A DNA stretch of 42,812 nucleotides, taken from positions 1-42,812 of the IMG/VR virus record IMGVR_UViG_3300007512_000075. One strand, given 5' to 3'. The notes beneath the pieces are model-generated. The model was not told the origin of the DNA, did no database searches, and saw only the letters and a program-made list of their open reading frames with translations. Source of the stretch: a virus. Below are positions 5,621 to 40,686 of the stretch, in pieces; position 1 is the stretch's first letter; each line of letters starts with the position of its first letter. The position numbers and the translations under genes were made by a program.

Positions 5621-7335
5621 AGAAACTCTCCTACGTTCTGCCGGATCCGAACCCGGCTAAAGACAGAGGCGAAGCGAACCGTGCCATCTTCTTAGCCGGT
5701 TTGGAAGAACACGGTAAAATAAGTAAAGCGTGCGCCATCGCCGGTGTCACTAGATCGGCTTACGATAAGTGGCGGCAACGCATCCCCGGTTTTTCGGAGA
5801 AGGCTGACGCTATACGCCACAAAGCACTCCTTGAAGGCGGGTTAGAGAAGTGGGATGGCACATTTGCGTCGTTTAGGGGCGAATATTTCGGCCATATGTC
5901 GCCCGGATTCCACATCGAAGCCATAGATGCCTACGAGAACACTCCGCCGGGCAACATTACCCTCATTTTGTGGCCCCCGGAGCACGGTAAGACTACTTTG
6001 GCGGAGGATTACTTCTGCAACAAGTTGGCGGTCAACCCAGAGTTTCGTATCACTGTCGGTTCCGAGGGTACTGACATGGCGCGCAAGATTTTGGGGCGTG
6101 TTCGTGCCCGCATGGAGCCTCACGGCCCGTTTCCTAAGTATGTAGCCAAGTTTGGGCCGTTCGTTCCGCAAAACCAGTCGGGTCGTAAGACTGCGCAGCC
6201 GTGGGGTGCCGACTATTTCAACATCTTTAAGAAGCAGACACATGATGAACGCGATTATTCGATGGTTGGGTTGGGTTGGCGGTCCAAGATTGCTGGTACC
6301 CGCACCGATCATCTACACGTTGACGATATCCAATCTAGGGTTTCTCTCAATTTGACCGAACAAATGTTCGAGGTGTTCCGTCAGGATTGGTTGACGCGCC
6401 CCGGCGAGAAGGGCCGTACCACCATTAATGGTACCCGTGTCGGGTCGGATGATTTCTATGAGCGGGTGATGACAGAAATAGATCCCGACATTTTGCAGGT
6501 AATCAAATTCCCGGCGATCATCACAAATGATGATGGGGAACCGGAACCGTTGTGGCCGGAAATGTTCACGTTGGAGTCGCTGGATCGTATCAAACGCAAG
6601 GTTGGGGAGGAGGCTTGGTCGCGTAACTATATGCAGGAACCGGGGTCTTCTCAATCTGCTACATTTACAGATGATTCTATCCAAAAATGTCTTAACCCTC
6701 TGAGGTCGGTGACTCATGACCCACCGGAAAACTGTAGTGTTTATATCGGCGTTGATCCTGCTCTTGGTTCAAACAACTGTGTGGTGGCTGCTACGCCGCA
6801 TGAAGGTAAACTTAAAATTCTTTTCATTCGGGAAGATACTGGGTTAACCCGCAACGAACAGATCCTCGGTGTAGTAGAGGACGCTATACAACGCTGTCTC
6901 AAAAATGGGACAACTGTTTCAGATGTGATCATTGAAGCAATGGTCTTTCAGAAGGGCTTGTCTAGAGATGAGCGCCTTATCGAAATGACCGAACGATACG
7001 GGTTCCGTGTTAGAGAGCATCTAACCGGTGTCAACAAGTACGATGAATCCATCGGTGTTCCGTCGATGGCGTTGTCGTTTATGCGGGAAGAAATCGAAAT
7101 CCCTTACGCCGATGATGGACCTACCCGTCATCAGGCCGACCAGTTGATCCGCCAGTTGAAGGCGTGGCGGCCATTGAAGCGGGGTACGAGGCTGCGTCAA
7201 GATCAGGTCATGGCGTTGTGGTTTATTTGGATACTTTGGCGGCAACGTAAACAGACTTTTGATGTAGACTCTTCACAATTCAGGTTTAATGGGCTACCGT
7301 GGAAGTCATCTATGGCTTCGACTAGGGCGTTTTAA
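5617..7335 (+). CDS. terL: Terminase large subunit with fused N-terminal helix-turn-helix
   Basis: The 572-residue packaging motor cuts and translocates phage DNA into the prohead. Residues 22-75 form a helix-turn-helix of small-terminase type (ISKACAIAGVTRSAYDKW, then PGFSEK). The ATPase follows, with Walker A WPPEHGKTT at 119-127, Walker B HLHVDD at 232-237 and an NGTR motif at 271-274. The nuclease half has GVD at 378-380 (Asp380), an acidic IIEAM at 438-442 and a C-terminal RQDQVMALW with Asp529, fitting an RNase-H-like triad. The start is GTG in a GTGA overlap with the gene before. No separate small terminase was found, so the N-terminal domain may serve that purpose. Confidence 0.92.
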   Translation: MKKLSYVLPDPNPAKDRGEANRAIFLAGLEEHGKISKACAIAGVTRSAYDKWRQRIPGFSEKADAIRHKALLEGGLEKWDGTFASFRGEYFGHMSPGFHIEAIDAYENTPPGNITLILWPPEHGKTTLAEDYFCNKLAVNPEFRITVGSEGTDMARKILGRVRARMEPHGPFPKYVAKFGPFVPQNQSGRKTAQPWGADYFNIFKKQTHDERDYSMVGLGWRSKIAGTRTDHLHVDDIQSRVSLNLTEQMFEVFRQDWLTRPGEKGRTTINGTRVGSDDFYERVMTEIDPDILQVIKFPAIITNDDGEPEPLWPEMFTLESLDRIKRKVGEEAWSRNYMQEPGSSQSATFTDDSIQKCLNPLRSVTHDPPENCSVYIGVDPALGSNNCVVAATPHEGKLKILFIREDTGLTRNEQILGVVEDAIQRCLKNGTTVSDVIIEAMVFQKGLSRDERLIEMTERYGFRVREHLTGVNKYDESIGVPSMALSFMREEIEIPYADDGPTRHQADQLIRQLKAWRPLKRGTRLRQDQVMALWFIWILWRQRKQTFDVDSSQFRFNGLPWKSSMASTRAF

Positions 7336-9146
7336 TGTATACTTTCGATGAGATAGTCGGCATTGTCCGGTTGAGGCAGACTAATCAGTCGCCGCTTTTG
7401 GAGCGGATGCTTCAGGTGCAGGAACGGTACAACGGCGACTATGTTATTCCGTTGCCGTCGATGGATAACGAACCTGTTTTGCCTCCGTTGACTCCGGCTC
7501 TTATAGCCGAGAATGTAGATGCGGTTGCGCAGCGTGCAGCATCGGTAGTGCCGTTCATTGGTTGTCCCGCTGTTGACGAGTCGAAAGAGCGTGGCATCAG
7601 GTCACGCGAGTATGCTGATATTCGCCGCAGATCCTTGGCTGCTACTTGGTATCAGTCTAAATACAAGGTCAAGATTCGTAGGGCGTACAGGCATCTGGCC
7701 GGGTATGCAACTACTTGCCTTATCGTGACACCCGATTTTGAGAAGGGGATGCCACGCATAGATGTCCGCGATCCGCTCGGCGTGTACCCGGAACCATCAT
7801 CGTATGACGACTATGACCCTCCGGCGAACTGTGCATTCGTGTACGGCAAGGCTGGCGGCTGGTTGCGTAGACATTATCCGGCTGCCCGTCAAGAGAACGG
7901 CGGCCCGATTCCTTCTGAAGAGAAGTCAAATCAGGAACTGTGGGATGTTGTCGAATGGGTCGATGAGGAACATATCGTTATCGGTATCATGGGGCCGCGG
8001 TATACGCATTTTGATCAGAAGGCGTACCCGTTGCATTCCACGCAGATAGAGTTGTCGCGTACAAGAAACAAGGCGGGTATGCCGTGCGTGATTACTCCCG
8101 GTCGGATCACATTGGATCGGATCGCGTCGTCTATTTCTAATGTTGTCGGCATTGTTGATCTTATGTCGAAGATGATGGCGTTGGATATTATGGCGCAAGA
8201 GAAGGCAATTTTCCCAGATAGGTATATAATCGGTCGCTCGGGTCAGGTGCCGATGATTGTCGGCGGCGAATGGAAAGACGGACGCGAAGGCGAAGTCAAC
8301 ATTCTGTTGGACGCTGAACAGATCGGTGAACTCCGCTCGGCACCTGACCCGTCCACGAACATAGCCATAGACAGGTTGGAGCGTAATGCAAGGATCTCTA
8401 CCGGAACCGTACCTCAAATTGGTGGTGAAACATACGGGGCTTTGCGTACCGGACGCGGCATCGACGCTCTCATGGGGGCAGCGTTGGATCCTCGTATCCA
8501 AGAGATGCAAGAAATTATGGAGGCGCATCTTCCCCACTTGAACGAGTCGCTGTTCGCGACGTATAAGGGATACTTTGGTTCTAAAAAGTTTTCTATGTTC
8601 ACTGGTTACGCTGGCGATTTCGGTCAGGTTAACTTCACGCCGAATGACCATTTTGAAACTTTCGACAATGTGGTATCGCATTCGATACCGGGTGCCGACA
8701 TTCAGGCTACGACAATTCAGTTGGGTCAGTTGCTCGGCATGAAGGGCATTAGTCTTAGAACATTCAGGACTAAGCATCCGTTTATTGAGGACGCGGAGGC
8801 AGAAGGGCGACGGGTCGATGAGGAGCAGTTGGAGGAAGCGGTTATGGCTGCGATCCAGCAGCAGGCTTTGTCGGGTCAGTTGCCTGTGGTGTATGTCTCT
8901 AAGATTGAGAAGCATCGCAAGAAGGGGTTGGATATTTTTGCTGCGATTGAGAAGGCTGACGCGGAGATAAGGGAGGAGCAGGCTGCTGTGGCTCCACCTC
9001 CGGGTGAGGGTCAGGTTATTGCTCCTGAGCAGGCTGCTGGTTTGGCGGCTGGTCCTGAGGGGATGGCTCCGCAGGCTGCTCCGCCTTCGGGAGAGTTTTC
9101 TCCTGAGGCTGCTCAGCAGTTGGTTAGTGCGTTGAGGGCTGGCTGA
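7335..9146 (+). CDS. Portal protein
   Basis: The 603-residue product lies directly after the terminase with a one-base overlap, the usual place for the portal. It would form the dodecameric ring at the packaging vertex. Visible features are an N-terminal helical LLERMLQVQERYNGDY segment, a DPLGVYPEPSSYDDYD segment of the kind seen in actinophage and podovirus portals (about residues 147-162), a long helix near residues 270-295 (IVDLMSKMMALDIMAQEKA), and an Ala/Pro/Gln-rich tail from about residue 545. Length fits the family. The call rests on position, size and overall character, since portals lack short diagnostic motifs. Confidence 0.8.
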   Translation: MYTFDEIVGIVRLRQTNQSPLLERMLQVQERYNGDYVIPLPSMDNEPVLPPLTPALIAENVDAVAQRAASVVPFIGCPAVDESKERGIRSREYADIRRRSLAATWYQSKYKVKIRRAYRHLAGYATTCLIVTPDFEKGMPRIDVRDPLGVYPEPSSYDDYDPPANCAFVYGKAGGWLRRHYPAARQENGGPIPSEEKSNQELWDVVEWVDEEHIVIGIMGPRYTHFDQKAYPLHSTQIELSRTRNKAGMPCVITPGRITLDRIASSISNVVGIVDLMSKMMALDIMAQEKAIFPDRYIIGRSGQVPMIVGGEWKDGREGEVNILLDAEQIGELRSAPDPSTNIAIDRLERNARISTGTVPQIGGETYGALRTGRGIDALMGAALDPRIQEMQEIMEAHLPHLNESLFATYKGYFGSKKFSMFTGYAGDFGQVNFTPNDHFETFDNVVSHSIPGADIQATTIQLGQLLGMKGISLRTFRTKHPFIEDAEAEGRRVDEEQLEEAVMAAIQQQALSGQLPVVYVSKIEKHRKKGLDIFAAIEKADAEIREEQAAVAPPPGEGQVIAPEQAAGLAAGPEGMAPQAAPPSGEFSPEAAQQLVSALRAG

Positions 9147-9511
9147 TGCCTCGCAAGAAGAGGAGTCAACCAGCGCAGGCTCCGGGTTTGGAGGCCGGTG
9201 CTGCTTATGGTGAGGCTGGTCAGAATTTGGCTGCGCAGGATCCGTCGCAGGGTGGTATCCCGTTGCCTGCCGGGGGCGGCCCTGTTGTGGCTGCCCCTCC
9301 GCCGCCTCAGCAGCGCCCGTTGCCGGTTGATGCTGCACGCGGATTTAATCCGCAGATCACTCCGCTGCTGGCACCGGGAAACAATAAGCCGTTGCCTACT
9401 GCCCCTGTCGGGTTGACAGAGAAGCAGGAGTCGGCTCTTATTCTTAGGGACTGGGCTGAAGCAACTGGAGATCCAACTATCGCTGATGCGGCGATGCAAC
9501 TAGGCCAATGA
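9146..9511 (+). CDS. Proline-rich protein of unknown function
   Basis: The 121-residue product is rich in Pro, Gln, Ala and Gly over residues 1-90 and probably disordered, with a basic start (MPRKKRSQ). The last 30 residues form one likely helix (EKQESALILRDWAEATGDP). It begins at the portal stop (TGATG) and overlaps the next gene by four bases. I do not recognise the family. Its place between the portal and the giant virion gene suggests a virion or assembly role. Confidence 0.6.
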   Translation: MPRKKRSQPAQAPGLEAGAAYGEAGQNLAAQDPSQGGIPLPAGGGPVVAAPPPPQQRPLPVDAARGFNPQITPLLAPGNNKPLPTAPVGLTEKQESALILRDWAEATGDPTIADAAMQLGQ

Positions 9512-12500
9512 CTGTTACCCCTGTTAAGCGGGAGCATGCCCGCGTAGGGACAATTAAAGCGTCGTCGTTTAATGACGAATACTACGGTCGCCGTATGCAG
9601 TTGCTTCGCGACGCTGGCGCTAACCGTTTGTTTGATGCTGCACCGGAAACATTGATGAATGTGGTGATGAGCAATCTGTCTGATGGGGACATGCTCAACC
9701 GGGTTATAGGCGCAGTTGATCAGGCAGAATTTAATCGAATCAAGCAGCAGTTTGAGGCGCTACCTACACAAAGGCAGTCGGCTGAGTTCGGTCAGTTGCC
9801 TGACAAGATGCAGCGCATGTTGCGTGGTGTCGGATACGAGCCGCCTAACGAGAAGGATCCAGATGGATTGTTGAAGCGGATCTTTAATTGGGATATTCCG
9901 CTGCTACCTGAGGAGCATTTCGGTACCGCTGTTAAGGTGGCGATGGCTCCCGTTCGCGGCATGGGATTCTTTCTCGGCAAGGGTGCTAGCACTCTGTGGG
10001 AAACCGCCGTGATGAAGCCGTCACGGTTCGCTACCCGTGCCGGTCGGTCGATTGCTTACATGGCTGAAAATAAGGCGAACGAATTTGCTGACCCTGCAGG
10101 CATACGGGAAGCGTGGCGTGAAAGCGAATTTGAGGAAGGGTCGTGGTACAAGTCAACGACCGATAAGGCAATTGATTTGGTTGGTGGCGCGCAAACAGAC
10201 ATGATCAAGTTGTTTGTTCGTGACGGCCTCCAAGGAGTTTACGACCATCTAGAAAAGATTGGTGCCGAACAGGGTTGGTCTGCGAAGCGGGTAGATGACG
10301 AGTACCTAGATTGGTATGACCGGCTTGCGGATCCAGACAATGTGGAAGCGTTGGAGGTGTTGGAAAGCGGGAGGCTTTCTTTGCCTGACGCGTCGGTGCG
10401 TGCATGGAATGCGACGCTGCCGTTTGATGTAACGCCGGGCACTAAGCCAGCAACTGTTATTGGTGTTGGCGGTTCGTTGGTTACCGAAATTTTGTTGGAT
10501 CCGACTACCTATATTGGCGGGTTTATTACAAAGATTGCGAAGCCGCTGCGTGCAGGGTTGCGAGCGGGGCAGTCGATAGATGCTGTGTATTTGTGGCGGC
10601 GTATCGCTTTGGCTGAACGGCACGCCGAGCCGGGCGTGCTGATGATTGCTGACGAGGCAACCGGTGAACTTGTTCCTGCTGTTGGCAGAGTTGGGGAAGC
10701 GGCACCAGTTGAGGCTAAGGCGTGGCTGGCGAATGGCGGCGATCAAGTTGTTGGCATGACCAATATGCGCATCCGGGCGCGGGCGCGGGCGATCAACAGG
10801 TTTGTTGATCGAACTACTGCCGCGTTTAAAGAGGTCGATGCGGTTGACGCATTCAAGAAGCAGTTGCTTCAGGAGTCTCCCGGTATGACTGCTAACGAGT
10901 TGGCGGTACGGGTGTCGGAAGAGTTTGGTTCTGTCACACAGTTGGAGTTACTTCTCCGTGATGTTCCTGCACTAAATGTGACAATGGATGAGATGCTTGC
11001 GTGGCATAGAGCGCGCCGTGACGGGCATTGGTACGCGCTCAAGGCAGGCGAGGGCGGCGATACTGTTGTTCATCGGATTCCTGAAAGTGGTGACCTTGTA
11101 AAAGATTTGCCGCGGACGAATGTTACGAATCCTGTGCCGACGCTGGCGCATGAGCAGGGCTACTGGGATTTCCTTCAGGAGAATGCAGGCAAGAGTGCGT
11201 TGTCTAGCAGGCTCGGCGGTGTCGGTCCTGAAGCGATTCTGATTCCTAAGATAGGCAAGTTTGCTTCACAGTGGATGCGCAGCAAGAAGTATATGCGTAG
11301 CGTTCTCGATTTCGACAAGTTCCCTGTCGAGGTTCGGGCTGATATGGCTCGGATGACGGCACAGTATTTGGCGAAGCAAACCGATTATGTGCGCTCCAAG
11401 TTGTGGGATGATCTTCAAAGCGGCGCGTTAAAGTTGAGCAACGACATTGACCGTGATGCGTTGAATCGGATCATGGATGAGCCGCTGATAGACATGGCTG
11501 ACGATTTCGGCTTGACCCCTGACGATGTGTTGAAGATTGAAGAGTCACGCAACCTGTATCAAAACAATGCCGCCCAAGTCATTTTGGAAGACAGCGAACT
11601 ATCGGACCTGCTTCACTGGTATCAGGCAAACGGTTACGAGGTTCGTGGCGGCGAACTTGTCTTGAAGGACAAGGATTGGTTTCAGCCTTTCTCGGGTGCC
11701 CGCAAAGCCGCTTCGTCATATTACAAAGAAAAAATTCCTTCTCCCGGTGGGTACAACGCTGAGTTGTCGTGGGCGGAACATGTAGGGATCATTGGCAAGT
11801 CGGCGGCTCGTGCCGCGGCTTATTATCCTGCACGGTTCGCTGAGAAATTAACAACATATGTTCCAACGTCGTCTATTCTAGATGTTACTGATGCCGATAC
11901 TGCGATCAAAGAGTTTACGGCACTCATTGATATGGGTGTCATGTCGGGGATGTCGCGCAGTCAGATAGATGGGTATCTGCGGTCGTTTGTGTTGGGTAAC
12001 GAGTCGGAGCGGTGGCTTGTCCAAAACGAATTCTTTCTTGATTTCATGGGGCGTAGCGGTGCGTTGGTTCATGGTGGACGCGATGTTCAGGAGTTTGTGG
12101 AACGGTTTATTCGGTACGGGCATCAAAGGTACGCCAATATTGCGGATGCGCCTGTCGGGTTGCATGGGTTAAATATTCGTCGTGCTGTTGTGCCCGGCGT
12201 GCAGCACAGTGCGCAGTTGGCGACAGCGAACGTGATTCCAAACTATAAGCAGTTGGCTTCTGTTTCCCGATATATGGGGTTTTACCGTATGGCGGGATGG
12301 GGGCTGCATCTTCCTGCGATAGATAAGTTTATTGCCCGGACTTGGCGACCAGCCGTATTGTTGCGATTGGGTTACGTTGCCCGTAATGGTGGCGAAGAGA
12401 TGATGTCGTGGTGGCTGCGTGAAGGCCCGAAGCATTGGGTTAACCAGAAGGTGGCTCGCACAGCGATAGGCAAACATACCGTGTGGGATACATACGGTCG

Positions 12501-19492: not shown

Positions 19493-20552
19493 GCATTGGG
19501 ATGCCTACAATAAGGCGTTGCCGAGGTTGCATCCGAGTGAAATAAAACGGATTGCTGATGCCCAGTTTGGACCTGAGAATGCGCGGATTTTAGCGGCAGT
19601 TGCTATTCCTGAATCTTACGGAGGGAAGCCGGGCGCTATTGGGGACAGCGGGGGAAGCGTCGGGTTGTGGCAGATTAACCGGATCCATTTCCGAGATTTG
19701 ATTGATTACGGAATTATTACTGTTCCATCGGAGGTGCGAGCCTCGCTTGATGGGGCTTCCGAAGAGGACAGTAAGGCGTTGTGGGCAAAGTATGCTCATC
19801 CACAGTTGGCTGATCCTGTCGTTAACGCTAAGGCTGCGTGGATGGTTGGTTGGGGGCAGGAGCCTAGCCGTGGGGCTGACCGCAACAAGTCGAATCTTGA
19901 AGGGTCGTTTAATTTTGAGCCGTGGACCATGTACAGAAACGGGGAATGGGAGACTGGCACCGGCTATCTAGATGACCCAGAATTTGCCGAGATGACACCC
20001 ATAGAGGTTATTGATTCTCTTCTCGCAGGCGATGGGATTGGCGCTCTTCCTGTAGATGATGGTCTGGGAGAAGGGTCGCGTCTTAACCCACGAGATTCGA
20101 CAACGTGGGGTTGGGATGCCGATTTCGGTGAGCGTATGCAATGGGCGGCAGATCAAGGTGACATAGATTTTCAGGCAGTTGCTGGCCGGATGGCCCCCGG
20201 TGAGATTGCTGCGTTGCGGCAACGGTTGGGGCCGGATGATCCGCGTATCGCTAGTGTGTTGTCGCAGGCTCAGTTCCCTGAGGGGCGGGCTGCGATTGTT
20301 GGTTATAGGACAGCGGAGGATGCGCGTAGGGCACCTGTGATTCTACGCAAGTTTGGTTTGACTGCGCATCCGGAGTTTCCGTTTCTTATTTCACCGATAG
20401 GTGCTGAGTTGTTTGATGCCGGGAAAGATGTTTTGTCGCAGTTGGGTGATTGGGCGATTGGTTCCTTGTTCAACCGCAGGGGCAGTTCGTTGTCTGATGA
20501 GCAGCGTTTGCAGTATGAGCGTTCGCTTGATGGAAGAACAAGTTACGAATAA
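19485..20552 (+). CDS. Virion-associated lytic transglycosylase-like protein
   Basis: The 355-residue product carries an N-terminal lysozyme-like/SLT fold. The catalytic-glutamate motif AVAIPESYGG has Glu43, GDSGGSVGLWQIN follows at about residues 53-65, and the domain ends near FEPWTMYRNGEW (about 146). Such domains cleave the glycan backbone of peptidoglycan, and in a virion they open a hole for DNA entry. The C-terminal 190 residues are unassigned and include APGEIAALRQRLG and a hydrophobic FPFLISPIGAELFDAG. It sits between two large virion proteins and overlaps both neighbours, so it is probably part of the ejection apparatus and not the lysis enzyme, which is encoded at 33292. Confidence 0.75.
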   Translation: MSEHWDAYNKALPRLHPSEIKRIADAQFGPENARILAAVAIPESYGGKPGAIGDSGGSVGLWQINRIHFRDLIDYGIITVPSEVRASLDGASEEDSKALWAKYAHPQLADPVVNAKAAWMVGWGQEPSRGADRNKSNLEGSFNFEPWTMYRNGEWETGTGYLDDPEFAEMTPIEVIDSLLAGDGIGALPVDDGLGEGSRLNPRDSTTWGWDADFGERMQWAADQGDIDFQAVAGRMAPGEIAALRQRLGPDDPRIASVLSQAQFPEGRAAIVGYRTAEDARRAPVILRKFGLTAHPEFPFLISPIGAELFDAGKDVLSQLGDWAIGSLFNRRGSSLSDEQRLQYERSLDGRTSYE

Positions 20553-23500
20553 TGGTTGAACCGTATACGCAGTTGCGGGAGCAGGGGCGACCCGAGGAAG
20601 ACCCTAACGAGGTTGACTACAACCCTGAGGCACGCTCAGGTTCGATCCGGACGCGTATAGATACAACCATGGATACACAACTGTTGGCTAACGATGCGTT
20701 TCGCGGCCGTGCAGAAGAGTTGTCTGAGTTGATGGCCGAAGGGCTGCGGCAAGGGAAGACTGCTGCTAGGCAAAGCGGCTTGTATCCGTATGATGAAGAC
20801 ACCCGGCAGTCCAATATTCCTCGTGAAGATATTATCAGTCAGGCTAATAACTGGTTGATTCAGCAGGCCGGGTTTGATTATCAGACTTTGGAGTCTGTGA
20901 TGCAGTCGGCGGGTTTGCAGGATGGTGTCGATTGGGCGTGGAAGCGGTTGGATGGCCCAAATGTTCAGTTTGATTTGGGGACGCTGCTGTCGGGGGCTAA
21001 TCCATTTAACTGGGTTGGTGATGTGGTTACTGGCGATTTCGAGTTTGGTCGGATGCCGGATCGGTTGAAAGAGTTTGATAAGAATCCGTATGCAAGTTTG
21101 TCGTTTGGTGATGTGACTGGTATTCGCAATTGGGGTGATGCTGTTTACGCGGCGTTGGATGTTGCTGACATGGCTGCGTTGGGTTTGGGCGGTGAGGTTG
21201 TGCGCCCTGTTTGGAATGCGTTGAAGTCCCGTGGGGGGTCGCGTACCGAGTTTGCTAGTCGGGCGGAACGCCAAATTGAGGATGCTTGGGAAGAGATGTT
21301 CGGGAGCGGTTCAGCAGATGCCGCACTTCGTAGAAGTATAATAAATGAGAGAGGTACGACACTAACCGGTTTGGAACTGGCAATGCAGGATGTCATGTTT
21401 GATTTCATACACGGAACGGGTTTTTTTAGGCAAGGTGCAGGCGAATATTCTAATATGACATTCAAGTCACTTGTTGATGACCTCAACTCCTTCGGGTGGC
21501 TTCAAAAGATGCATCCGGGAGAACTTGACAAAGTATTAAATGAGTTGCGTAGACGCGGGTTGAATCCAGACGAGTATCTTCATAAACCCTATAAGCAGTT
21601 TGACTCGCGAGGGGTTAAATCTGAATTCGTTGGCGCATCAGGTTATGGCTGGGATACAACAGCAATGACAATAAAGGCCAAGGAATTGGATCTGCTTGAT
21701 GTTATTGAGGGTCGTCGTGTTCAGGGAGAGTTTTTCCATCTTCGTACACCCGATAGCAGGATCGAGTGGGATTTTAATGAAGCACAAGCCCAACGCGCGT
21801 ATGACGCTGGTATCGATGATCGGTCGCTTGACGAACATCGACGGGCAGTATGGGGGGGAGAGCCGCCACCCCGTCCTGAGGGTCCACCCGGTACACCTGA
21901 ACTCACATTTCGGGAGAGCGCCCTTCAAGGAAGGGTGAGGAGTTCGCAGCCGCACCGTTGGGAAGATATACAGTTATGGGTTGCTGCCCATTCATCAATG
22001 AATCATGTGGGCATGGGACGTTTGAGTGGATATTCGGAAAATGATATTAAGAACTGGTATTTGGGGTTGGAAGCGGAGCGTCATGGGATCGGCTTACCAT
22101 ATAACTTTGATGAAACGAGAGGGAGAATTCCCGGTGCCGTGGAAAGGCGCCGTGCCATTCTTGCAGGCTTGCCGGATGAGGTTGTTGAGGCAGCAGAGCG
22201 GGCGTATTTGGCAGATGTGGCAAAGTGGGATGAGGTGCTATCGCGTGATTTGCATGGCCCGCCCGATATACCGATTAGGGATCGCAATGAACTCTTAAAC
22301 CGAGATCTATCTACGGTCCCAGAGGAGATGTTGCCCGAAGGATACACTCAGACAGCATATGGACCGGCTAGATGGCTGCCTGATGAAAACGAATTTGAGG
22401 ATCTACTTGATACTTATGCTCTAGAGGACTTGGATGAAGAGATTCTTGATTTTATTGGCGTAACCCACATTAATGGAGTGCCTCGCCCTATGGGCAGTCT
22501 ACCCGGTACGCCTACTGGTGAGTTGACACCTGAATCAATGGTGCAGGCGATACGCGAACATTACACAGCGAAGTGGGAATCCATGACTCCAAAGTCCCGA
22601 GCGTCATGGATGCAGATGGGGATGATGGATAGCCCAGATGATTTGGACGGCTATCTAGACGGTATGGTAGATAACATTGTTGGGGATGGTACTCCTCTTG
22701 ATCCTGCTATCGGGTGGGGGAATCTTCCAGAAGGCATAGAACGGCGGGCACATGAAATCGCTGCGGAGGGTCCACCCGGTACGCCTAGAGAAAGAATAAC
22801 AGATGCTTTAATGGACGAAGGTCCGGGGCCGGGACCGATGGACCCGTTCGATTATCACTATAATCTTGCCGAGGCTAGTGGCTGGACTCCACCCGGCGAC
22901 CAAACTCTTGACGAGTGGCTGGAATCACTTGACTGGTTGCGTCAACCACCATACGACAAAGGCCCCGGTCGGTTTAACCCGGATATGTACCCAGCGTTTA
23001 GAGAGATTAGAGAGTGGGCGGAAAAGGAAATAGACAGGTTGGACCGTCCACCCGGTACACCTAGAGGCCCGATTGATCCCGCAACCGGTAAGCCGACGGC
23101 AGCATACGAAGGACCGCAGATTCCGCCCGAAGACCGCCCCTATAAGATTGATCGTTATTACGAAAAGTCTGATGATGAGATCATGCAGGAGATGTTTGAT
23201 GCTGGCGCGATAGGTGTAGATGGGGATGGCAGGTTTATTTATGACGTAGCGGAAATGGAGTATCTTTTTGGTCCAGCGGATCAAGGGTTGGAGGGTCCAC
23301 CCGGTACACCTACTGGGTTCCCAGACCATATCACTGATCTTGATTCGTTGAAGAACTGGTCTGATGCTGAAATGGTTGCTAGGCCAGTAGTGGCTAGGCC
23401 GGAGGAAGCCGAATGGCGTGCGTTGCATCTGGGGGACTGGCCGTCAGCCGAGAAGGTGTCTATCCAAGAGTTAGCAGCCATTCAAAGGTGGAGTGGTTCA

Positions 23501-24250
23501 TATCAGGGATTGTCGTATAACGAGCGTCCCATATGGTTTGCGCGTGATACGCCGGAGGAGTGGGCGCAACGCCAGAAGAATGCGGGCAGCGGCGGAATGA
23601 GAGATCACGATTTGGATATTGCTACTGGGCCGATGGGAGATACTGGCGAAGCGGCACTTTATAGGGAAATGGAGGCAGCCGATGCAGCACGCGGGTTGTT
23701 CCCAGATGAACCCCATGTCGTTGAGCATCTTCGTCGCTATGGGTATAGCGATGAGGATATTGCTAGGTTGTTGGATGGCCCGCAGGGTCCACCCGGTACA
23801 CCTGAAGGGATGCGTCCACTACCTGAGAATTTAGGAGAGCCGATCCCGTCATCGGTAGGCGATCAAGGTTCCCATTATGATCCCGGTCCTGACCGGATGT
23901 TGGACCCCTACGACGATATCGACGTTATTGAAGCATTGGAAGCAACTGGAAAGTCGTACGGAAACTGGGATGAACTGACGCATAGGGACGCCTTGGGGAT
24001 GCTGGGTGACGACTACCCATTCTGGCATGGAGACGTTATGCGTAGTCGGATGAAAGCATTGCATGAGGGGTTCGATCCTCCAGAGGGTGGTATTAGGCCA
24101 CCGGAGTCACCACAGCAGGGTCCACCCGGCCCAGAACAGGGGCGATCTTCTCATCATCCTGATAGGTTTACGCCGGATGAGATAGATGAGATTGTTCGCA
24201 ACAACGGACTAACCGACGCTGAAATTGAGAGATTTTGGGGGAATAACTGA
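20552..24250 (+). CDS. Large acidic virion protein with dispersed GPPGTP linkers
   Basis: The 1232-residue product is highly acidic. Residues 1-330 are helical with a Gly/Ala hydrophobic patch (about 175-225) and resemble the other internal virion proteins. From residue 444 the chain is divided by the hexapeptide GPPGTP or close variants at about residues 444, 649, 740, 832, 915, 1079 and 1190. The intervals of 83-205 residues are Asp/Glu/Trp/Tyr-rich helical segments, each different. The linkers are nearly identical in DNA. The ATG overlaps the transglycosylase stop. I do not recognise the family; a virion component made of several accreted modules is inferred. Confidence 0.55.
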   Translation: MVEPYTQLREQGRPEEDPNEVDYNPEARSGSIRTRIDTTMDTQLLANDAFRGRAEELSELMAEGLRQGKTAARQSGLYPYDEDTRQSNIPREDIISQANNWLIQQAGFDYQTLESVMQSAGLQDGVDWAWKRLDGPNVQFDLGTLLSGANPFNWVGDVVTGDFEFGRMPDRLKEFDKNPYASLSFGDVTGIRNWGDAVYAALDVADMAALGLGGEVVRPVWNALKSRGGSRTEFASRAERQIEDAWEEMFGSGSADAALRRSIINERGTTLTGLELAMQDVMFDFIHGTGFFRQGAGEYSNMTFKSLVDDLNSFGWLQKMHPGELDKVLNELRRRGLNPDEYLHKPYKQFDSRGVKSEFVGASGYGWDTTAMTIKAKELDLLDVIEGRRVQGEFFHLRTPDSRIEWDFNEAQAQRAYDAGIDDRSLDEHRRAVWGGEPPPRPEGPPGTPELTFRESALQGRVRSSQPHRWEDIQLWVAAHSSMNHVGMGRLSGYSENDIKNWYLGLEAERHGIGLPYNFDETRGRIPGAVERRRAILAGLPDEVVEAAERAYLADVAKWDEVLSRDLHGPPDIPIRDRNELLNRDLSTVPEEMLPEGYTQTAYGPARWLPDENEFEDLLDTYALEDLDEEILDFIGVTHINGVPRPMGSLPGTPTGELTPESMVQAIREHYTAKWESMTPKSRASWMQMGMMDSPDDLDGYLDGMVDNIVGDGTPLDPAIGWGNLPEGIERRAHEIAAEGPPGTPRERITDALMDEGPGPGPMDPFDYHYNLAEASGWTPPGDQTLDEWLESLDWLRQPPYDKGPGRFNPDMYPAFREIREWAEKEIDRLDRPPGTPRGPIDPATGKPTAAYEGPQIPPEDRPYKIDRYYEKSDDEIMQEMFDAGAIGVDGDGRFIYDVAEMEYLFGPADQGLEGPPGTPTGFPDHITDLDSLKNWSDAEMVARPVVARPEEAEWRALHLGDWPSAEKVSIQELAAIQRWSGSYQGLSYNERPIWFARDTPEEWAQRQKNAGSGGMRDHDLDIATGPMGDTGEAALYREMEAADAARGLFPDEPHVVEHLRRYGYSDEDIARLLDGPQGPPGTPEGMRPLPENLGEPIPSSVGDQGSHYDPGPDRMLDPYDDIDVIEALEATGKSYGNWDELTHRDALGMLGDDYPFWHGDVMRSRMKALHEGFDPPEGGIRPPESPQQGPPGPEQGRSSHHPDRFTPDEIDEIVRNNGLTDAEIERFWGNN
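21881..24130 (+). repeat. Seven dispersed copies of an 18-base coding repeat
   Basis: The consensus is GGTCCACCCGGTACACCT. Copies lie at 21881-21898 (exact), 22496-22513 (three differences), 22769-22786 (one), 23045-23062 (one), 23294-23311 (exact), 23786-23803 (exact) and 24119-24130 (truncated, 12 bases with one difference). Spacings are 615, 273, 276, 249, 492 and 333 bases, all multiples of three, so every copy is read as Gly-Pro-Pro-Gly-Thr-Pro or a near variant. Four of six codons are invariant in the full copies despite free synonymous choices. Confidence 0.85.
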
Positions 24251-24343: not shown

Positions 24344-25489
24344 ATGACTGACACAAGGGGAGCCGGGTTTTTCGGCCCACCCGATGATGGCTTCCGACCA
24401 CAGGTTGTTAACCAGCAAGCGCCGGACAACAGACGTATCCCCGGCAGCATCTTTGGATGGTCATGGTTCGGCAACTGGGCTGAGAACACTCTCACGCCTA
24501 ACCATCCGATTCGTCAGTTCTTGGATGGTTGGGTTGCACAATTTGAGGCAGCAGCGAACGCCGAGTTGACAGGCGGCGGGCTTGTACCTGTCGAGTCAGT
24601 AGATAGTCTAATTGAACGATTCCAGCAGGATTTGTGGCAGCAGGACTGGTGGCAAAACTTTGATGCTTCGTGGCAGGCTGTTCAGCGGCTGCGTTACGGA
24701 ACGGATGTTCCTGCTGGCGAGTACGAGTCGTTGGTTGAGTCAACGATTCAACGTATTGGCGAGGTTGCTTCCGGATTGGGATTCATTGATCCCAATACTG
24801 GTAGTTTAACACTTGATCTTGCTTCGTCTGATATTAGAGAATTTGCTGAAAGTGTTATTCTTGATGCCAGCGATGTGTTTAATGATTTGCCGTCGCTTAA
24901 TTCGGATGAAGCCAACCGGCTAATTGAACAGCATCTTCTTGATCAGCGTGGTGTTGGTACTGTTGAGGGTGATCTGAAGGTTGGGTCAGGGTCGCTTCAG
25001 GATATGTATAACCAGTTGAAGAATTTGGCTGACGCGAATTATGTGTCGATGGATTCTGAAGAGTTGTGGGATCTTGCGGTGAGTGTTAAGCGTGAGGATG
25101 CGTCGTTGGAATGGGCGCGGGATCGGATTCTTGGCAAGGTTGGCGACCAGTATTCGTTTCTGGAGGGGTCGTCTATTTTGGGGCGGATTACTGGCCGGAG
25201 TGCTGGCGCTTCCGGGGAGTATTCTTCTTTGCGGAATCATTTGAGTCCGTTGCGTAATACGCTTGCTGAGGTGTGGGAGTTGGGTAATAGCGAAGTCGAT
25301 TTGCAGAATATCTTTGGTTCTGATTTGGGTTCGTTGGTTGTAGGCGAGGGTGATGATGAGCGGTTTATGAATTCGCGGGAGATGCGTAAGTGGGCGCGTA
25401 CTCAGCCGCAGTTTCAGGAAACGCAGGCTTATTCTAATGGGATGAGCAGCATTGCTTCGTCAATGTTGCAAATGTTTGGGGCGCGGTAA
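24344..25489 (+). CDS. Virion protein of unknown function
   Basis: The 381-residue product is mostly helical and acidic with a Pro-rich start. It has WSWFGNWAENTLTPNHPIRQF near residues 39-59 and ends in a Met/Ser/Gln-rich helix (SSIASSMLQMFGAR). A strong Shine-Dalgarno, AGGAGGGG, lies just before the ATG, so this gene restarts translation after a short gap instead of relying on coupling. It overlaps the following gene by one base and shares its helical, Trp/Gln-rich style. The family is not recognised; a structural role is inferred from the operon. Confidence 0.5.
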   Translation: MTDTRGAGFFGPPDDGFRPQVVNQQAPDNRRIPGSIFGWSWFGNWAENTLTPNHPIRQFLDGWVAQFEAAANAELTGGGLVPVESVDSLIERFQQDLWQQDWWQNFDASWQAVQRLRYGTDVPAGEYESLVESTIQRIGEVASGLGFIDPNTGSLTLDLASSDIREFAESVILDASDVFNDLPSLNSDEANRLIEQHLLDQRGVGTVEGDLKVGSGSLQDMYNQLKNLADANYVSMDSEELWDLAVSVKREDASLEWARDRILGKVGDQYSFLEGSSILGRITGRSAGASGEYSSLRNHLSPLRNTLAEVWELGNSEVDLQNIFGSDLGSLVVGEGDDERFMNSREMRKWARTQPQFQETQAYSNGMSSIASSMLQMFGAR

Positions 25490-26802
25490 TGGCTGAGTGG
25501 ACTTGGCGGCAGCAACGCAATATAGATTTGGGTCGCAGCCCCTATTTTAACGATGTCATGTTTGATGCGGGGATGCTGACGGAGGCTGAGGCGCAGGAAC
25601 GTGGTGTGGCAGAGGAGGCTCGCCAGTCGCGTATCACTCCTGAAAACATTTATGGTATTGATTTGTCTACGCCTCTGAACACGGGAGCGTCTGCTCCGGA
25701 TCAAGGCAACGTTGGCATGGGGTTTCAGGATTGGATGGAATCGCAGGGACTATGGGAAGGGTACCTGCGTGGCGATCATCCGATGGCGTGGGATCAATTT
25801 AAACTGCGGCCTACGTCTTACGGCAATGCGAGTTTGTATGCGGATGGCGGTAGTGGTGGGGCTACTGGCGATCTGTCAGGTGGGGCTGACGCTGCTACTG
25901 CTGCACGGAATCAGGAAATAGCGAACACGTTTAAAGACGCGTTCATTGGTGGCCTGCAAGAAGTCGGGTTGGATACAGAAACAATAGATGCTTTGTGGAC
26001 TTGGGCTGAGGGCCGGTTTACTGGCGATGCGTCGTTTACTGCTGCGCAGGCAATGATCGAAGTTTATGATCAGCAGGCGTTTAAGGATCGTTTCCCCGGT
26101 ATAGATCAGATGCGTCAGTCGGGTGACGTGCTGCGTGACATTCCTACACCGGCCGAGTATTTGGCGCGGGAGAAATGGTTGGCTCGCGAGTTGTCTCGTT
26201 ACGGCATGGACACTCTTGGTGCCGATGTAAACAATTTGGTTACGCAGTCGTATCTTCACAGTATTGGTGATGGCGAGTTGTTGGAGCGGCTGCAGGAAGC
26301 GTCGCGTCTTATTACGGATGCCCCGCCTGAGGTGCGTGCCACGTTTGGCGACTGGTATGGGCCGCATGCTGATACTGCTTTGATGGCAGCATTTCTTGAC
26401 CCTAGCGACGAGGTGTTCGGCGGCAAATGGAAGGATTGGGCGACGGTTAAAAGTAATATTGATGTTGCTGAGATTGGTGGCTGGTCGCGTATGAGGTTGG
26501 GGTTGGATGCGCCTATTACGCAGGAGCGGGCTGGTGCGATTGCTAAGTTGGGGTTGGAGCAGTCCACGATTTGGCAGAATTTTGATACGGTTCGGGCGCA
26601 GGAGGAGTTGTTTATCGAAAAGATTGGTGAGGGTTCCGATTTGACTGCCACTGGCGAGGGAGTTAGTGCTGAGTTTGGTTTGGATCTGGATGCGGCTGAC
26701 ATATTGGAGCGTAGGCGTGGTACCCGTGCGGCAGAGTTCGCTGGCGGCGGTGGTGCTATGATTACTCAATCTTCTACAGGATTTGGAGCGGCTAATGCCT
26801 AA
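25489..26802 (+). CDS. Probable minor virion protein
   Basis: The 437-residue product has an N-terminal arm (MAEWTWRQQRNIDLGRSPYF), a Gly-rich hinge (about residues 122-132), and a helical domain with AFKDRFPGIDQMRQSGD and PTPAEYLAREKWLARELSRYG (about residues 195-240), a pattern I associate with minor structural proteins of actinophages and marine phages. The C-terminus has ERRRGTRAAEFAGGGGAMIT and a short Gly/Phe tail. It follows the protein at 24344 with a one-base overlap and is followed by a small basic protein. Exact virion role is unknown. Confidence 0.5.
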   Translation: MAEWTWRQQRNIDLGRSPYFNDVMFDAGMLTEAEAQERGVAEEARQSRITPENIYGIDLSTPLNTGASAPDQGNVGMGFQDWMESQGLWEGYLRGDHPMAWDQFKLRPTSYGNASLYADGGSGGATGDLSGGADAATAARNQEIANTFKDAFIGGLQEVGLDTETIDALWTWAEGRFTGDASFTAAQAMIEVYDQQAFKDRFPGIDQMRQSGDVLRDIPTPAEYLAREKWLARELSRYGMDTLGADVNNLVTQSYLHSIGDGELLERLQEASRLITDAPPEVRATFGDWYGPHADTALMAAFLDPSDEVFGGKWKDWATVKSNIDVAEIGGWSRMRLGLDAPITQERAGAIAKLGLEQSTIWQNFDTVRAQEELFIEKIGEGSDLTATGEGVSAEFGLDLDAADILERRRGTRAAEFAGGGGAMITQSSTGFGAANA

Positions 26803-26899
26803 GGTTGGTAAGAAGAAGTTTGCTTATACGAAGAAGGGTAAGGCTGCTGCGAAGAAGCACGCTAAGAAAACAGGGAAGAAGGTGAAGAGTGTTTACTAA
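26795..26899 (+). CDS. 34-residue lysine-rich small protein
   Basis: The frame starts at the ATG at 26795, overlapping the previous gene by eight bases, and ends with TAA at 26897-26899. The product begins MPKVGKKKFAYTKKGKAAAK and ends KKVKSVY, with 13 lysines in 34 residues. Short lysine-rich proteins with this KKKFPYT-type start recur in many phages beside lysis or capsid genes, which supports it being real. It overlaps the holin gene by 11 bases. A nucleic-acid or membrane-surface partner is plausible but unproven. Confidence 0.65.
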   Translation: MPKVGKKKFAYTKKGKAAAKKHAKKTGKKVKSVY

Positions 26900-27080
26900 G
26901 GATGTTCTTGAACGGGTGGCCGCTACCTTTATTCAGGCGTTCCTCGGTATCTTTGTAGTTGGTGGGGATATCGGTAATGCTAAGGCGGCTGCGTTGGCTG
27001 GTGCTACGGCTGCGTTGAGTCTTGTCAAGGGTGTTGTCGCCTCTAGGTTTGGTGACGGATCGGCTTCGGCTGCGTCGTGA
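26889..27080 (+). CDS. Holin
   Basis: The 63-residue protein starts at GTG with AAGG upstream. It contains a first hydrophobic helix (VAATFIQAFLGIFVVGG) and a second hydrophobic Ala/Gly helix (AKAAALAGATAALSLVKGVVA), with charged ends. The pattern DVLERVAATFIQAF matches small actinophage holins. Holins form pores in the cytoplasmic membrane that let the endolysin reach the peptidoglycan; the likely endolysin lies 6 kb downstream at 33292. It overlaps the following membrane protein gene by four bases (GTGA). Confidence 0.8.
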   Translation: MFTKDVLERVAATFIQAFLGIFVVGGDIGNAKAAALAGATAALSLVKGVVASRFGDGSASAAS

Positions 27081-27304
27081 TCGACTGGGTTGGCTTCGCT
27101 GGGCTTATCGGAGCCGCCCTTATCAGTGGAGTGTTTGCTGTTCTCGCTACTAGGTATCGACGCGAGAATACGTCGCAGCATGCAGCGAATCAGGTTCGGC
27201 TCAACGGGATAGCGGACGATATCACTGAGATTGGTAAAGATATTCGTTCGGTGCGCGAATGGCAGCATCGCCATTTAGAGTGGCACGCCGAGCAGAAAGT
27301 ATGA
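27077..27304 (+). CDS. Small membrane protein, possible second holin or lysis accessory
   Basis: The 75-residue product starts at GTG in a GTGA overlap with the holin gene. One transmembrane helix is clear (WVGFAGLIGAALISGVFAVLA, residues 4-24), followed by a positive TRYRRE and a charged, probably coiled-coil tail. This architecture is frequent in the gene next to an actinophage holin. It could be a second holin, a regulator of lysis timing or a spanin-like accessory. No lipobox was seen. Confidence 0.6.
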   Translation: MIDWVGFAGLIGAALISGVFAVLATRYRRENTSQHAANQVRLNGIADDITEIGKDIRSVREWQHRHLEWHAEQKV

Positions 27305-27492
27305 TATAGTAATAAACACATAGGCCGCCGTGTGCTCTTACGGGCCGGTGAGTGCTTATCCGTTGAGATCGCCCACGCTCTCAATGAGTAGATAGTGGAG
27401 ACTGAACCGGATCGTGACGACCGGGGAAGTTCCTTTAAGTCACCCACCGCACATTCCCTCCGTTTGTGCGCGATTTAGGCAGGAGAGACATC
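27305..27492 (+). other. 188-base untranslated leader before the capsid genes
   Basis: This is one of the few sizeable gaps in the late module. A TATAGT at 27305-27310 could be a -10 box, but no good -35 precedes it. A strong Shine-Dalgarno AGGAG at 27481-27485 serves the next gene. The interval is rich in short GGCC/CCGG inverted segments but I could not build a convincing long stem. It may be the leader of an extra capsid promoter or an RNA-processing region. Confidence 0.35.
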
Positions 27493-27966
27493 ATGGCAGA
27501 GGCACAGGAAACCGGTATCAAGGAACTGCGTGATGCAGCCGACCGTGGTCGGAAGGCATCGCAGGAACTTGAGGAGATGAAACGCGAGATGGCGTTTCTG
27601 AAGGCCGGTGTGGATACCGATACGAAAGCCGGACAACTTTTGTTTAAGGCTTACGACGGGGATCTAGATCCAGATCTTCTTCGGGTTGAGGCAGAGGAGT
27701 TAGGCATCTTGAAGGGTGCTGATCCTGAGCCTGTACCGGAGCCGGAGGTCACGGAGGCTGAAGCGCAGGTTGCGCGGCAGCGCCGGGATTTGGTATCCGA
27801 TCAGGTTCCACCTGATACTCAGACAGAATCCCCTTACGATGCAGGGCACAGACAGTTTAAGGAAATGCTTGACGCGGGTCGTCCCAAGGAGGACGCAGCG
27901 GCAGCGTTTGTTTCTACTGTGATTGAGGCTGCTTCATCGGGAGATGAAAGGGTTCTTTCTAGGTAG
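27493..27966 (+). CDS. Scaffolding-like protein
   Basis: The product of 157 residues starts at the ATG at 27493, seven bases after AGGAG; an in-frame GTG 27 bases upstream lacks such a site. It is charged and helical, with a probable coiled coil over residues 8-40 (KASQELEEMKREMAFLKAG), then a GQLLFKAYDGDLDPDLLRVEAE segment, a Pro/Glu linker and a terminal helix. A coiled-coil acidic protein just upstream of the major capsid gene is the classic profile of a scaffolding protein that templates prohead assembly. No protease was found. Confidence 0.6.
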   Translation: MAEAQETGIKELRDAADRGRKASQELEEMKREMAFLKAGVDTDTKAGQLLFKAYDGDLDPDLLRVEAEELGILKGADPEPVPEPEVTEAEAQVARQRRDLVSDQVPPDTQTESPYDAGHRQFKEMLDAGRPKEDAAAAFVSTVIEAASSGDERVLSR

Positions 27967-34014: not shown

Positions 34015-34222
34015 TCTTCTAGAATTTGCACGCACCCGTGATCACGGTGGTTGGGCGTGGCACGACACGCTCCCTGATGAACTGTTCAATGAGATATGGG
34101 ACGCGATGCATCTCAACACTGGTGTAGGTGAGATGACTGTGTTGGCGTGGCTACGCACTCAGGGTTACGAAGATGTCACAGAGGGCAAGATAAAGGGGAT
34201 TCGTAGTGCCGAAAGACGTTAA
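34004..34222 (+). CDS. Small protein, possible helix-turn-helix
   Basis: The 72-residue product starts at an ATG with GGAGG at 33993-33997. It has HGGWAWHDTLPDELFNEIWD, then GVGEMTVLAWLRTQGYEDVTEGK, and a basic end (IKGIRSAERR). The second half looks like a helix-turn-helix (AWLRTQGY recognition-like), but this is only a visual impression. It overlaps the endolysin gene by 11 bases and the metallophosphoesterase gene by 17. Unknown function. Confidence 0.45.
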   Translation: MDSSLLEFARTRDHGGWAWHDTLPDELFNEIWDAMHLNTGVGEMTVLAWLRTQGYEDVTEGKIKGIRSAERR

Positions 34223-35264
34223 GACTCTTAACGAGTTCGCTGAAGAAGGAGCCGTAATCCAAGAGGTTACGGCTCTATCACGTCAACTAGGTAAGACCCG
34301 CACCGAACGTGATGTTCTTAAGGCACAGGTTAAAGAACTGGAATCTCATTTAGATGAGGCCGAAACCAGAGGCCAACTATTTACACACCTAGCAGGCCAC
34401 ACATATAAACCACCTAAGTGGCTTACGAAGAAAGCGAAACGTGACGCTGCTGTTGTGTGTACCGTTCTTTCGGACACTCACTTTGATGAGGTGGTAGACC
34501 CCGACGAGATAGGTGGCCGTAATGAATACAACCGGAAGATCGCAGTTGAACGGTTGCAAATGTATTTCCAAAAGATTCTGCTACTCACCAATGAATATAT
34601 TACTGGGTTGGATTACCAAGGATGTGTACTGTTTCTAGGTGGCGACATTTTCAGCGGAGACATACACGAAGAATTAACTGAAACCAACGAAGACACAATG
34701 CTTGGGTCGGTTATCTTCTGGACTGAACAAATTACGGCAGGTATCAATCTGCTATCAGAATACTTCGACTATGTGCATGTGCCATGTGTGGTAGGTAACC
34801 ACGGCAGGCGGTCACATAAGCCGCGACACAAGTTGCGTGTCAGAGATAACTTCGACTGGTTCCTGTATAAGACTTTGGAGCAGCGGTTCATCGGCAACGA
34901 TAAAGTAACCTTCGATGTTGCACCGGGTGCCGACCTGCTTGTCGATGTGCAGGACACAACATACCTATTGACGCACGGTGATCAGGCGCGAGGAGGAGGC
35001 GGCATCGGTGGCATCTGGCCTCCGTTGATGCGAATGGTGGCACGCAAACGCAACAACACAGACTTTGATTACATGGTGCTGGGGCATTTCCACCAGTTAA
35101 TCATGGCTCCGTCGTCAGGGTTCCTACTCAACGGTTCGTTGAAGGGCTACGACGAGTACGCTGCTATCAACAACTTTGCGTTTGAGGTTCCGCAGCAGGC
35201 GTTGTGGATCAACGTGCCGGGTAAAGGTATTTTGTGGCAGACATCGCTGCTAGTCGATAGTTAA
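34206..35264 (+). CDS. Calcineurin-like metallophosphoesterase
   Basis: The 352-residue product starts at GTG. Residues 15-55 are a likely coiled coil. The catalytic domain has all five metallophosphoesterase motifs: VLSDTHF (Asp90, His92), GGD (Asp147), GNHG (Asn198, His199), THGD (His257) and GHFH (residues 293-296). The fold binds two metal ions and cleaves phosphoester bonds; phage relatives are often annotated as DNA-repair or Mre11-like phosphoesterases, and the true substrate here is unknown. It is the last gene of the rightward module, an odd place for a nucleic-acid enzyme. A terminator-like hairpin follows within 20 bases. Confidence 0.8.
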   Translation: MPKDVKTLNEFAEEGAVIQEVTALSRQLGKTRTERDVLKAQVKELESHLDEAETRGQLFTHLAGHTYKPPKWLTKKAKRDAAVVCTVLSDTHFDEVVDPDEIGGRNEYNRKIAVERLQMYFQKILLLTNEYITGLDYQGCVLFLGGDIFSGDIHEELTETNEDTMLGSVIFWTEQITAGINLLSEYFDYVHVPCVVGNHGRRSHKPRHKLRVRDNFDWFLYKTLEQRFIGNDKVTFDVAPGADLLVDVQDTTYLLTHGDQARGGGGIGGIWPPLMRMVARKRNNTDFDYMVLGHFHQLIMAPSSGFLLNGSLKGYDEYAAINNFAFEVPQQALWINVPGKGILWQTSLLVDS

Positions 35265-37423: not shown

Positions 37424-38266
37424 CTACTCCATATCTGACATGCAACGGGTCTGAAAATCACAGTACCGGCATTGCCACGCCCTCCCATACGAAGCATCGT
37501 GCTCCCACCTACCCGTTGCTGGATCAGAAATCTCGGCAGGGAACGGGACATCAGGGTCAGAATGAGAGAACCTTCTACCAACAGCAACCGGATCCTTCGT
37601 CTCATGTACCTGATCTGTGATAGCAGCCAGCCTACCAGCCTCCTGCTCAGCCAACGGTACATATTCGTCGCGAGGGAAATGCCACTCAGTAGCAAACCTG
37701 CCGATGTCATCAATGCCCTTAGCCTCAGCCCTATTAGGAGCAATGTTCTCCATCGACAGATAACCAATCACCAACAAGTCAGCGTCCAATGCATTGGCAT
37801 ACAACGCACCCTGCAACACATGAGAATGCCTTGGACCCTGCCCATTCTCAACAGACATCTTGTACCCATACCCGTTGATCGTCTTCAACTCCAGCACAAT
37901 GACCTGCTGAGGATCAGTCTTAGTGCGCAACACCAGATCAACATGGCCGTAACCATGCTCACCCATCGTTACATCAACCTCTTCTTCAATCTCAACAGTG
38001 TCATCCTTGGCAAGCCACGACTTGACAGCAGGCTCCAACAACTCATGAACAACAGAACCCAACCCCATACGCCAATAGTCAGCAGTCGAAGGAGGATCAG
38101 TCTTCTCAACACCAAGCGTTTCATAAGCAACCTTGCGGGCACACATACCTGCCTGCGAACCACGCCACCTCATATCATCAGGCGTGTGTGGAGCCTCAGA
38201 CCCTTCAGCCCAATGTTCTGCTATGCGGTGAACAAACAGTCTTGTATCAGCCGTCGCTGTCAGCAT
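37424..38266 (-). CDS. Cas4-like / RecB-type PD-(D/E)XK exonuclease with iron-sulfur cysteines
   Basis: The 280-residue product has the layout of Cas4/AddB-type nucleases. One cysteine lies near the N-terminus (SQAGMCARKVAYE, Cys42) and three at the end (CRYCDFQTRC: Cys266, Cys269, Cys275), which would hold a 4Fe-4S cluster. The nuclease core has GSVVHELLE (His74), GHVDLVL (Asp110), LELKT (Glu126, Lys128) and a HVLQGALYANAL motif (Gln152). Such enzymes resect DNA ends to make single strands for recombination. The ATG at 38266 follows TGGAG by five bases; a TTG 18 bases upstream is less likely. It lies with SSB and DUF932 genes. Confidence 0.82.
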   Translation of the reverse strand: MLTATADTRLFVHRIAEHWAEGSEAPHTPDDMRWRGSQAGMCARKVAYETLGVEKTDPPSTADYWRMGLGSVVHELLEPAVKSWLAKDDTVEIEEEVDVTMGEHGYGHVDLVLRTKTDPQQVIVLELKTINGYGYKMSVENGQGPRHSHVLQGALYANALDADLLVIGYLSMENIAPNRAEAKGIDDIGRFATEWHFPRDEYVPLAEQEAGRLAAITDQVHETKDPVAVGRRFSHSDPDVPFPAEISDPATGRWEHDASYGRAWQCRYCDFQTRCMSDME

Positions 38267-38277
38267 TTGTCTCCATT

Positions 38278-38430
38278 TCAGCAATGTTTGAACTTGTTTA
38301 CCATGTAGTTAGCAACGATTCGTTCAACGATGTCAACAAATATGGTATCATCTGTCAACTCGTCGATTCGTTTATCAATCTCATAATGCAAATCCAATGT
38401 ATCAATCTGTGCACTAACTTCTATCTCCAT
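38278..38430 (-). CDS. 50-residue helical protein of unknown function
   Basis: A leftward frame from ATG at 38430, with AAAGG about ten bases upstream, runs to TGA at 38278-38280. The product reads as an acidic helical protein: MEIEVSAQIDTLDLHYEIDK, then DELTDDTIFVDIVERIVANY and KFKHC at the end. It fills the gap between two genes, overlaps the upstream gene by 17 bases and stops 11 bases before the nuclease ATG. No family recognised. Confidence 0.55.
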   Translation of the reverse strand: MEIEVSAQIDTLDLHYEIDKRIDELTDDTIFVDIVERIVANYMVNKFKHC

Positions 38431-38665: not shown

Positions 38666-38686
38666 AATGCATCCTCCCTAATATAT

Positions 38687-40684: not shown

Positions 40685-40686
40685 CT

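Follow-up and report, generated by a model that had tools for sequence, protein, structure and literature searches.

A variable gene of the virus record IMGVR_UViG_3300007512_000075 of IMG/VR (42,812 bases, analysed over its whole length and called here the window) is best explained as coding for a modular protein of the polyvalent type, whose cassettes are swapped when short-homology recombination takes place at an in-frame junction built into the gene. A probability of roughly 0.7 is given to this reading. The phage appears able to rearrange the protein block by block with the reading frame intact. At the level of sequence comparison, cassettes common to diverged phages were shown to occur in different order, with their borders at the linkers.

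Linker copies in the window gene

The gene occupies positions 20552..24250 of the plus strand (1232 codons) between the portal and major capsid genes. It is flanked by an SLT-domain lysozyme gene and by conserved late genes, and the major capsid gene is located downstream of the latter. This position among late genes fits the virion protein of the original prediction, a designation drawn from gene order only, and the product is probably a tailed-phage protein that is packaged and delivered with the DNA into the host.

Six full copies of the 18-mer GGTCCACCCGGTACACCT were found in this open reading frame. Three are exact and encode GPPGTP (linker 1, 21881..21898; linker 5, 23294..23311; linker 6, 23786..23803), two have one mismatch (linker 3, 22769..22786, GPPGTP; linker 4, 23045..23062, RPPGTP) and linker 2 (22496..22513, SLPGTP) has three. 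Linker 7 (24119..24136) is truncated to GGTCCACCCGGCCCAGAA, with five mismatches and the peptide GPPGPE. Seven copies of a GPPGTP-encoding repeat had been predicted, three of them exact; the three exact copies and the common frame were recovered, the seventh copy turned out to be truncated and the hexapeptide holds for four copies. The spacings (615, 273, 276, 249, 492 and 333 bases) agree with the predicted range of 249-615 and are all divisible by three, and every copy is in frame with the gene. Copies with up to three mismatches are expected by chance at 0.02 per window and six were never reached in shuffles, and no such copy was found in the rest of the window outside this open reading frame.

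Relatives carrying the linker

A direct search with the modular protein (P0001) against IMG/VR and GenBank phages revealed no relative, and no PHROG was assigned; relatives were reached via the 18-mer and via neighbour genes. The search of the exact 18-mer in IMG/VR, which had been proposed as a check, gave six stretches, five of which (four contigs) share the gene neighbourhood, and a fifth related contig was recovered once the pattern was slightly relaxed. The sixth exact match (L001), the sole one in an unrelated context, was rejected as a relative. Five further contigs therefore carry the linker in an equivalent large gene: 3300030450_001467 (G001, 8 copies), 3300035204_000233 (G002, 2), 3300025665_000352 (G003, 5), 3300031757_000033 (G004, 2) and 3300030382_002141 (G005, 3), that is, 20 copies beyond the window, all in the same frame and encoding GPPGTP or GLPGTP with a variable first residue. 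The linker-bearing contigs are only six, all of them metagenome assemblies. Still looser patterns matched mostly unrelated places in IMG/VR; the matches examined were mostly single copies in short frames, many of them derived from one repeated unrelated sequence, and they were discarded. The extended linker was not found in bacterial or archaeal genomes and neither were relatives of the capsid protein, and the terminase is only distantly related (about 25% identity) to those of Streptomyces and other phages.

Searches with the neighbouring late gene (25489) and capsid gene (28353) gave an independent set of relatives, and the equivalent variable gene was read in G001-G005, G014, G018, G023, L137, L139, L141, L142 and L144. 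The genes of G014, G023, G018, L137, L139, L141 and L142 have no linker or only degenerate matches, and because such homologous genes exist the linkers are not essential; variation is also seen among the linkerless relatives. Two alternative N-terminal families were distinguished, one in the window, G001, G003, G014 and G023 and the other in G002, G004, G018 and L137-L144, with linkers present in both. The N-terminal parts of the window (20552-21286) and of L209, L211, L216 and L144 fall into unrelated families, yet these phages share neighbours. Since two unrelated families occur among phages with the same neighbours, the front part of the gene has been exchanged as well.

Downstream of the late gene 25489-26802, the window segment 26775-27090 has 78-94% DNA identity to several relatives whose flanking gene reaches only 35-50% at the protein level. 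By eye, this segment holds a short lysine-rich open reading frame (start near 26795) and a small holin-like one, and an Rfam search of window positions 26700-27600 gave no match.

The domain search has revealed effector domains in the relatives. ART-PolyVal was detected in G003 (E 8e-8, 33.6 bits, Pfam cut-off 31.2) and, below the cut-off, in G001; cpYpsA was found in G005 and G023, and weak NADAR matches in relatives. The window protein gave only a sub-threshold Exog_C match, and no known effector domain was recognised in its own modules. An AlphaFold2 model of the ART domain with its neighbouring cassette failed (pLDDT 37).

Conservation of the linker at the DNA level

Over all phages the conserved unit is about 22 nt, GGAG-GGTCCACCCGGTAC(A/G)CCT, slightly longer than the predicted 18 bases that define the six full copies of the window. 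The block extends from position -4 to +17; beyond it, on both sides, information drops to background over a few nucleotides. Among the 26 linkers, the same amino acid was encoded by the same codon in 0.80 of comparisons, against 0.275 in a codon-usage simulation (s.d. 0.016, maximum 0.33), so that synonymous sites, third positions included, are kept beyond codon usage, as had been proposed. The codon CCC is present in 25 of the 26 linkers (its frequency is 0.11 in structural genes and 0.21 in the variable gene) and GGT is the fourth linker codon in all 26. Some of the codon changes observed alter the amino acid: GGT to AGT, CGT or AAA replaces G by S, R or K, and CCA to CTA replaces P by L.

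These data bear on the possibility that selection acts on the peptide only, E-GPPGTP being a flexible proline-rich spacer between domains, with modules moving by illegitimate recombination of which only joins at domain borders survive. PPG motifs slow translation, and the spacer could also slow the ribosome between domains. The position of linkers at domain ends, for example directly after the ART domain ending in QISKLE, is in line with such a spacer, and one G005 linker keeps the peptide with divergent codons. The codon test (0.80 versus 0.275), however, disfavours selection on the peptide only, and constant CCC and GGT codons alongside changing residues (S, R, K, L) are the opposite of what peptide selection would leave, which makes this explanation unlikely. 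Relatives with an unchanged module order but divergent synonymous codons in the linkers, or with no linkers, had been named beforehand as evidence against module shuffling; linkerless homologues do exist, as does the codon-divergent G005 linker.

Conservation of DNA could also reflect a site for a dedicated protein, either a site-specific recombinase or an endonuclease. The core ACCCGGTAC is present in 25 of the 26 copies, the borders are sharp and the linker contains an imperfect inverted repeat, GGTnnACC-C-GGTnnACC. This repeat largely follows from the GGT and ACC codons of GPPGTP, though, and linkers are always on one strand, in one frame and in one gene, outside which neither the window nor G001 has further copies. 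No dedicated enzyme was recognised among the genes scanned, many window genes lacking an assignment, and a protein-binding site of this kind is considered quite unlikely.

Exact matches between linkers of different phages reach 24-27 nt. In several otherwise unalignable gene pairs the linkers are the sole exact matches of at least 20 nt; over whole genomes further long exact matches exist, in conserved genes. Perfect identity in most linker pairs extends over only about 15 nt.

Cassette borders at linkers

The window protein is a string of modules unrelated to one another and recombined among phages. Its N-terminal domain (20552..21286) is shared at 27-32% identity with relatives with linkers (G001, G003) and without them (G014, G023), and is followed by a variable segment (21287..21880) up to linker 1. 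Module 1 (21899..22495) has two parts that match G002 in reversed order (window residues 453-548 with G002 796-888, and 575-645 with G002 480-548); between these transposed parts lies a degenerate linker-like site (22256..22273, GGCCCGCCCGATATACCG, GPPDIP, 13/18 matches), possibly a relic linker. Module 2 (22514..22768) precedes module 3 (22787..23044), which corresponds linker to linker to G001 residues 1355-1447 with 64% protein and 72% DNA identity; in blastp the match covers G001 1348-1453 and window 739-837. Module 4 (23063..23293) ends at linker 5, which is included in a 27-nt exact match to the G001 linker at residue 1299. Modules 5 (23312..23785) and 6 (23804..24118) are followed, after linker 7, by the C-terminal tail (24137..24250), whose last 23-28 residues match the G003 module after linker 1016 (68-83%).

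The alignment with relatives proposed for locating breakpoints has been carried out by blastp among the variable genes, and homologous modules were found to begin and end at linkers and to differ in order, with matching segments that span linker to linker. G001 494-646 matches G003 642-790. G001 1041-1652 aligns with G003 390-938, and here two cassettes between the G001 linkers 1299 and 1448 replace a single cassette between the G003 linkers 645 and 783. The order is changed: the counterpart of the G003 cassette 645-782 (G001 497-638) precedes the ART cassette instead of following it directly. Homology between G002 and G018 reaches residue 261 and stops exactly at the G002 linker at 262, and some module swaps, such as the one at G002 residue 651 relative to G018, have no recognisable linker at one border. 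When linkers were masked in the linker-bearing genes, 17 of 65 homology ends lay within 6 residues of a linker, against a mean of 4.3 for random linker placement (maximum 15 in 20,000 trials) and 3.1 for decoy masks (maximum 10 in 300), counts that serve as guides since the ends are non-independent (two sides per alignment). The same clustering was obtained with unmasked or letter-randomised linkers. The comparison with relatives thus supports the idea of a built-in cassette junction for module shuffling.

Half or double linkers were observed in the L208 gene (residues 628-644, TGTPPRRLEGPPGTP) and in the L209 gene (residues 262-289, KPPGTPKWRLEGTPPELRYKVEGPPGTP), which would fit the insertion of new cassettes into older linkers. 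A large open reading frame of a related phage (L194, 1-4491) contains a dispersed in-frame 13-mer (PAETGP/PAETAP) with spacings of 405 and 846 nt, possibly a different linker.

Recent cassette transfer between two phages

Clear recent cassettes come from a single phage pair, G001 and G003. Protein identity between these phages is 39-42% in three late genes (at 17102, 24344 and 25489), with fourfold sites at 0.30-0.37; it is 57% at the end of the giant late gene (fourfold 0.32), 71% over capsid residues 1-149 (fourfold 0.42) and 39% in the N-terminal domain of the variable protein. Two cassettes, in contrast, are 91% and 79% identical in protein and 94% and 85% in DNA, with fourfold values of 0.97 and 0.86. 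Being far more alike than the orthologues, these cassettes have moved recently between diverged phages, whereas the rest of the gene has not. At the linkers, DNA identity over 60 nt on each side switches from 0.27 to 0.95 and from 0.97 to 0.23. A third copy of either shared cassette was not found in IMG/VR with cassette search patterns.

One complete ART cassette of G003 lies between the two copies of an exact direct repeat of 36 nt, of which the linker is part. The G003 (L210) gene, at 6642-10619, carries three linkers of a single variant (GGTCTACCCGGTACGCCT, with CTA), two of them within this repeat, as if they had been homogenised.

Recent passive spread, in which the linker would have been copied by slippage or together with cassettes, without a role in later exchange, is regarded as very unlikely. 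In its favour are the high linker identity, the three identical CTA variants of G003 and a within-genome homogenisation that is only weak (P 0.04; 0.10 when one outlier is left out). Against it, the linkers do not track the cassette: those at the same cassette end in two phages are alike in 16.1 of 18 positions, compared with 16.4 of 18 for other G001-G003 linker pairs, a result that weighs against the exchange reading too. The linker also lies between modules in several phages that are near fourfold saturation in other genes. Joining of contigs from different phages at linkers during assembly, conceivable for metagenome contigs whose linkers share up to 24-36 nt, is highly improbable, because five to eight linkers lie within single intact open reading frames embedded between conserved genes, the same cassettes, bounded by linkers, were recovered from two separate metagenomes, and exact repeats of 15-27 nt are short with respect to normal read lengths.

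Proposed exchange mechanism and candidate recombination genes

In the proposed mechanism, the variable part of the gene would be a string of cassettes joined by an in-frame junction of about 22 bp (E-GPPGTP), which would place identical DNA at each module border. Short-homology recombination, by strand annealing or template switching, could then take place between any two junctions of the same or of another phage, and would insert, delete or reorder whole cassettes with the frame kept. Linker DNA identity would guide the exchange, an annealing or recombination function of the phage or the host would perform it, and diversification of effector modules would be the benefit.

For Red-beta a minimum pairing length of 23-27 bp is reported, for RecA one of 31-34 bp (PMC3945230); these values favour an annealing protein over RecA. 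The longest exact linker matches (24-27 nt) reach the Red-beta minimum, and the identity of about 15 nt of most linker pairs is short for RecA. The minus strand of the window has a cluster (37424-41094) of a Cas4-like/PD-(D/E)XK exonuclease gene (37424-38284), a DUF932 protein gene (38750-39736) and an SSB gene (40687-41094), which resembles an exonuclease/annealing-protein/SSB set; a DNA-repair-type exonuclease is encoded at 34206-35264. Homologues of the Cas4-like exonuclease and of the DUF932 protein recur in relatives. In Foldseek, the model of the DUF932 protein (pLDDT 79) had only weak and scattered matches, among them several to RAD52 (E 0.1-0.7); its comparison with structures by VIA-align gave no Z of 5 or more. 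It is possible, but rather unlikely, that the 22-bp junction is a maintained exchange site at which a phage annealing system reshuffles the delivered effector modules continually, in a programmed manner and without a site-specific recombinase; the minus-strand genes at 37.4-41.1 kb for the Cas4-like exonuclease, the DUF932 protein and the SSB are candidates for such a system.

Little is known of how domains are rearranged in the large effector proteins of phages: diversity of domain order has been described, but a physical junction has rarely been seen. The linker described here is a natural sequence that, through its DNA identity, position and phase, allows exchange without loss of frame. Donor and recipient cassette pairs from natural phages could be tested in the laboratory, and the linker may serve as a marker for new effector modules in the stretches between linkers.

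Comparison with known systems

Polyvalent proteins of phages and conjugative elements are likewise large and multidomain, with unlike effector domains, a late-gene context and variable domain order (PMC5512222). They are thought to be delivered along with the phage DNA, ART domains are their commonest protein-modifying domains and one Helicobacter prophage protein has up to 50 domain combinations (PMC5512222). Cassette recombination was suggested for them by analogy by Iyer et al. 2017, where the word "linker" is absent (PMC5512222). The window modules differ in having no recognised effector domain, while relatives carry ART-PolyVal and cpYpsA.

The module boundary sequences of lambdoid and other phages, as they are presented where cited in PMC3029335, are also short conserved DNA at mosaic borders and proposed sites of homologous recombination. 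They separate genes or gene blocks, whereas the window linkers are inside one open reading frame, are repeated up to eight times and keep the frame. Streptococcus thermophilus phage antireceptors (PMC5601072) share with the window protein the presence of Gly-Pro-rich stretches between domains of a variable phage protein, but their collagen-like repeats are runs of Gly-X-Y and the window has a single fixed, DNA-conserved hexapeptide between unrelated modules. Each linker site comprises only two Gly-X-Y triplets (GPP-GTP), and the long uninterrupted Gly-X-Y tract of collagen-like proteins is not present in the window protein.

Polymorphic toxins have a conserved boundary motif ahead of the exchangeable effector module. 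In Rhs and CDI systems (PMC3482391), cassettes recombine and effector modules are exchangeable as well; a single C-terminal toxin is exchanged there, whereas the window protein has many internal cassettes with a junction on both sides. Mosaic polyvalent proteins and boundary sequences are thus already known, and what is found here is an unusually clean junction.
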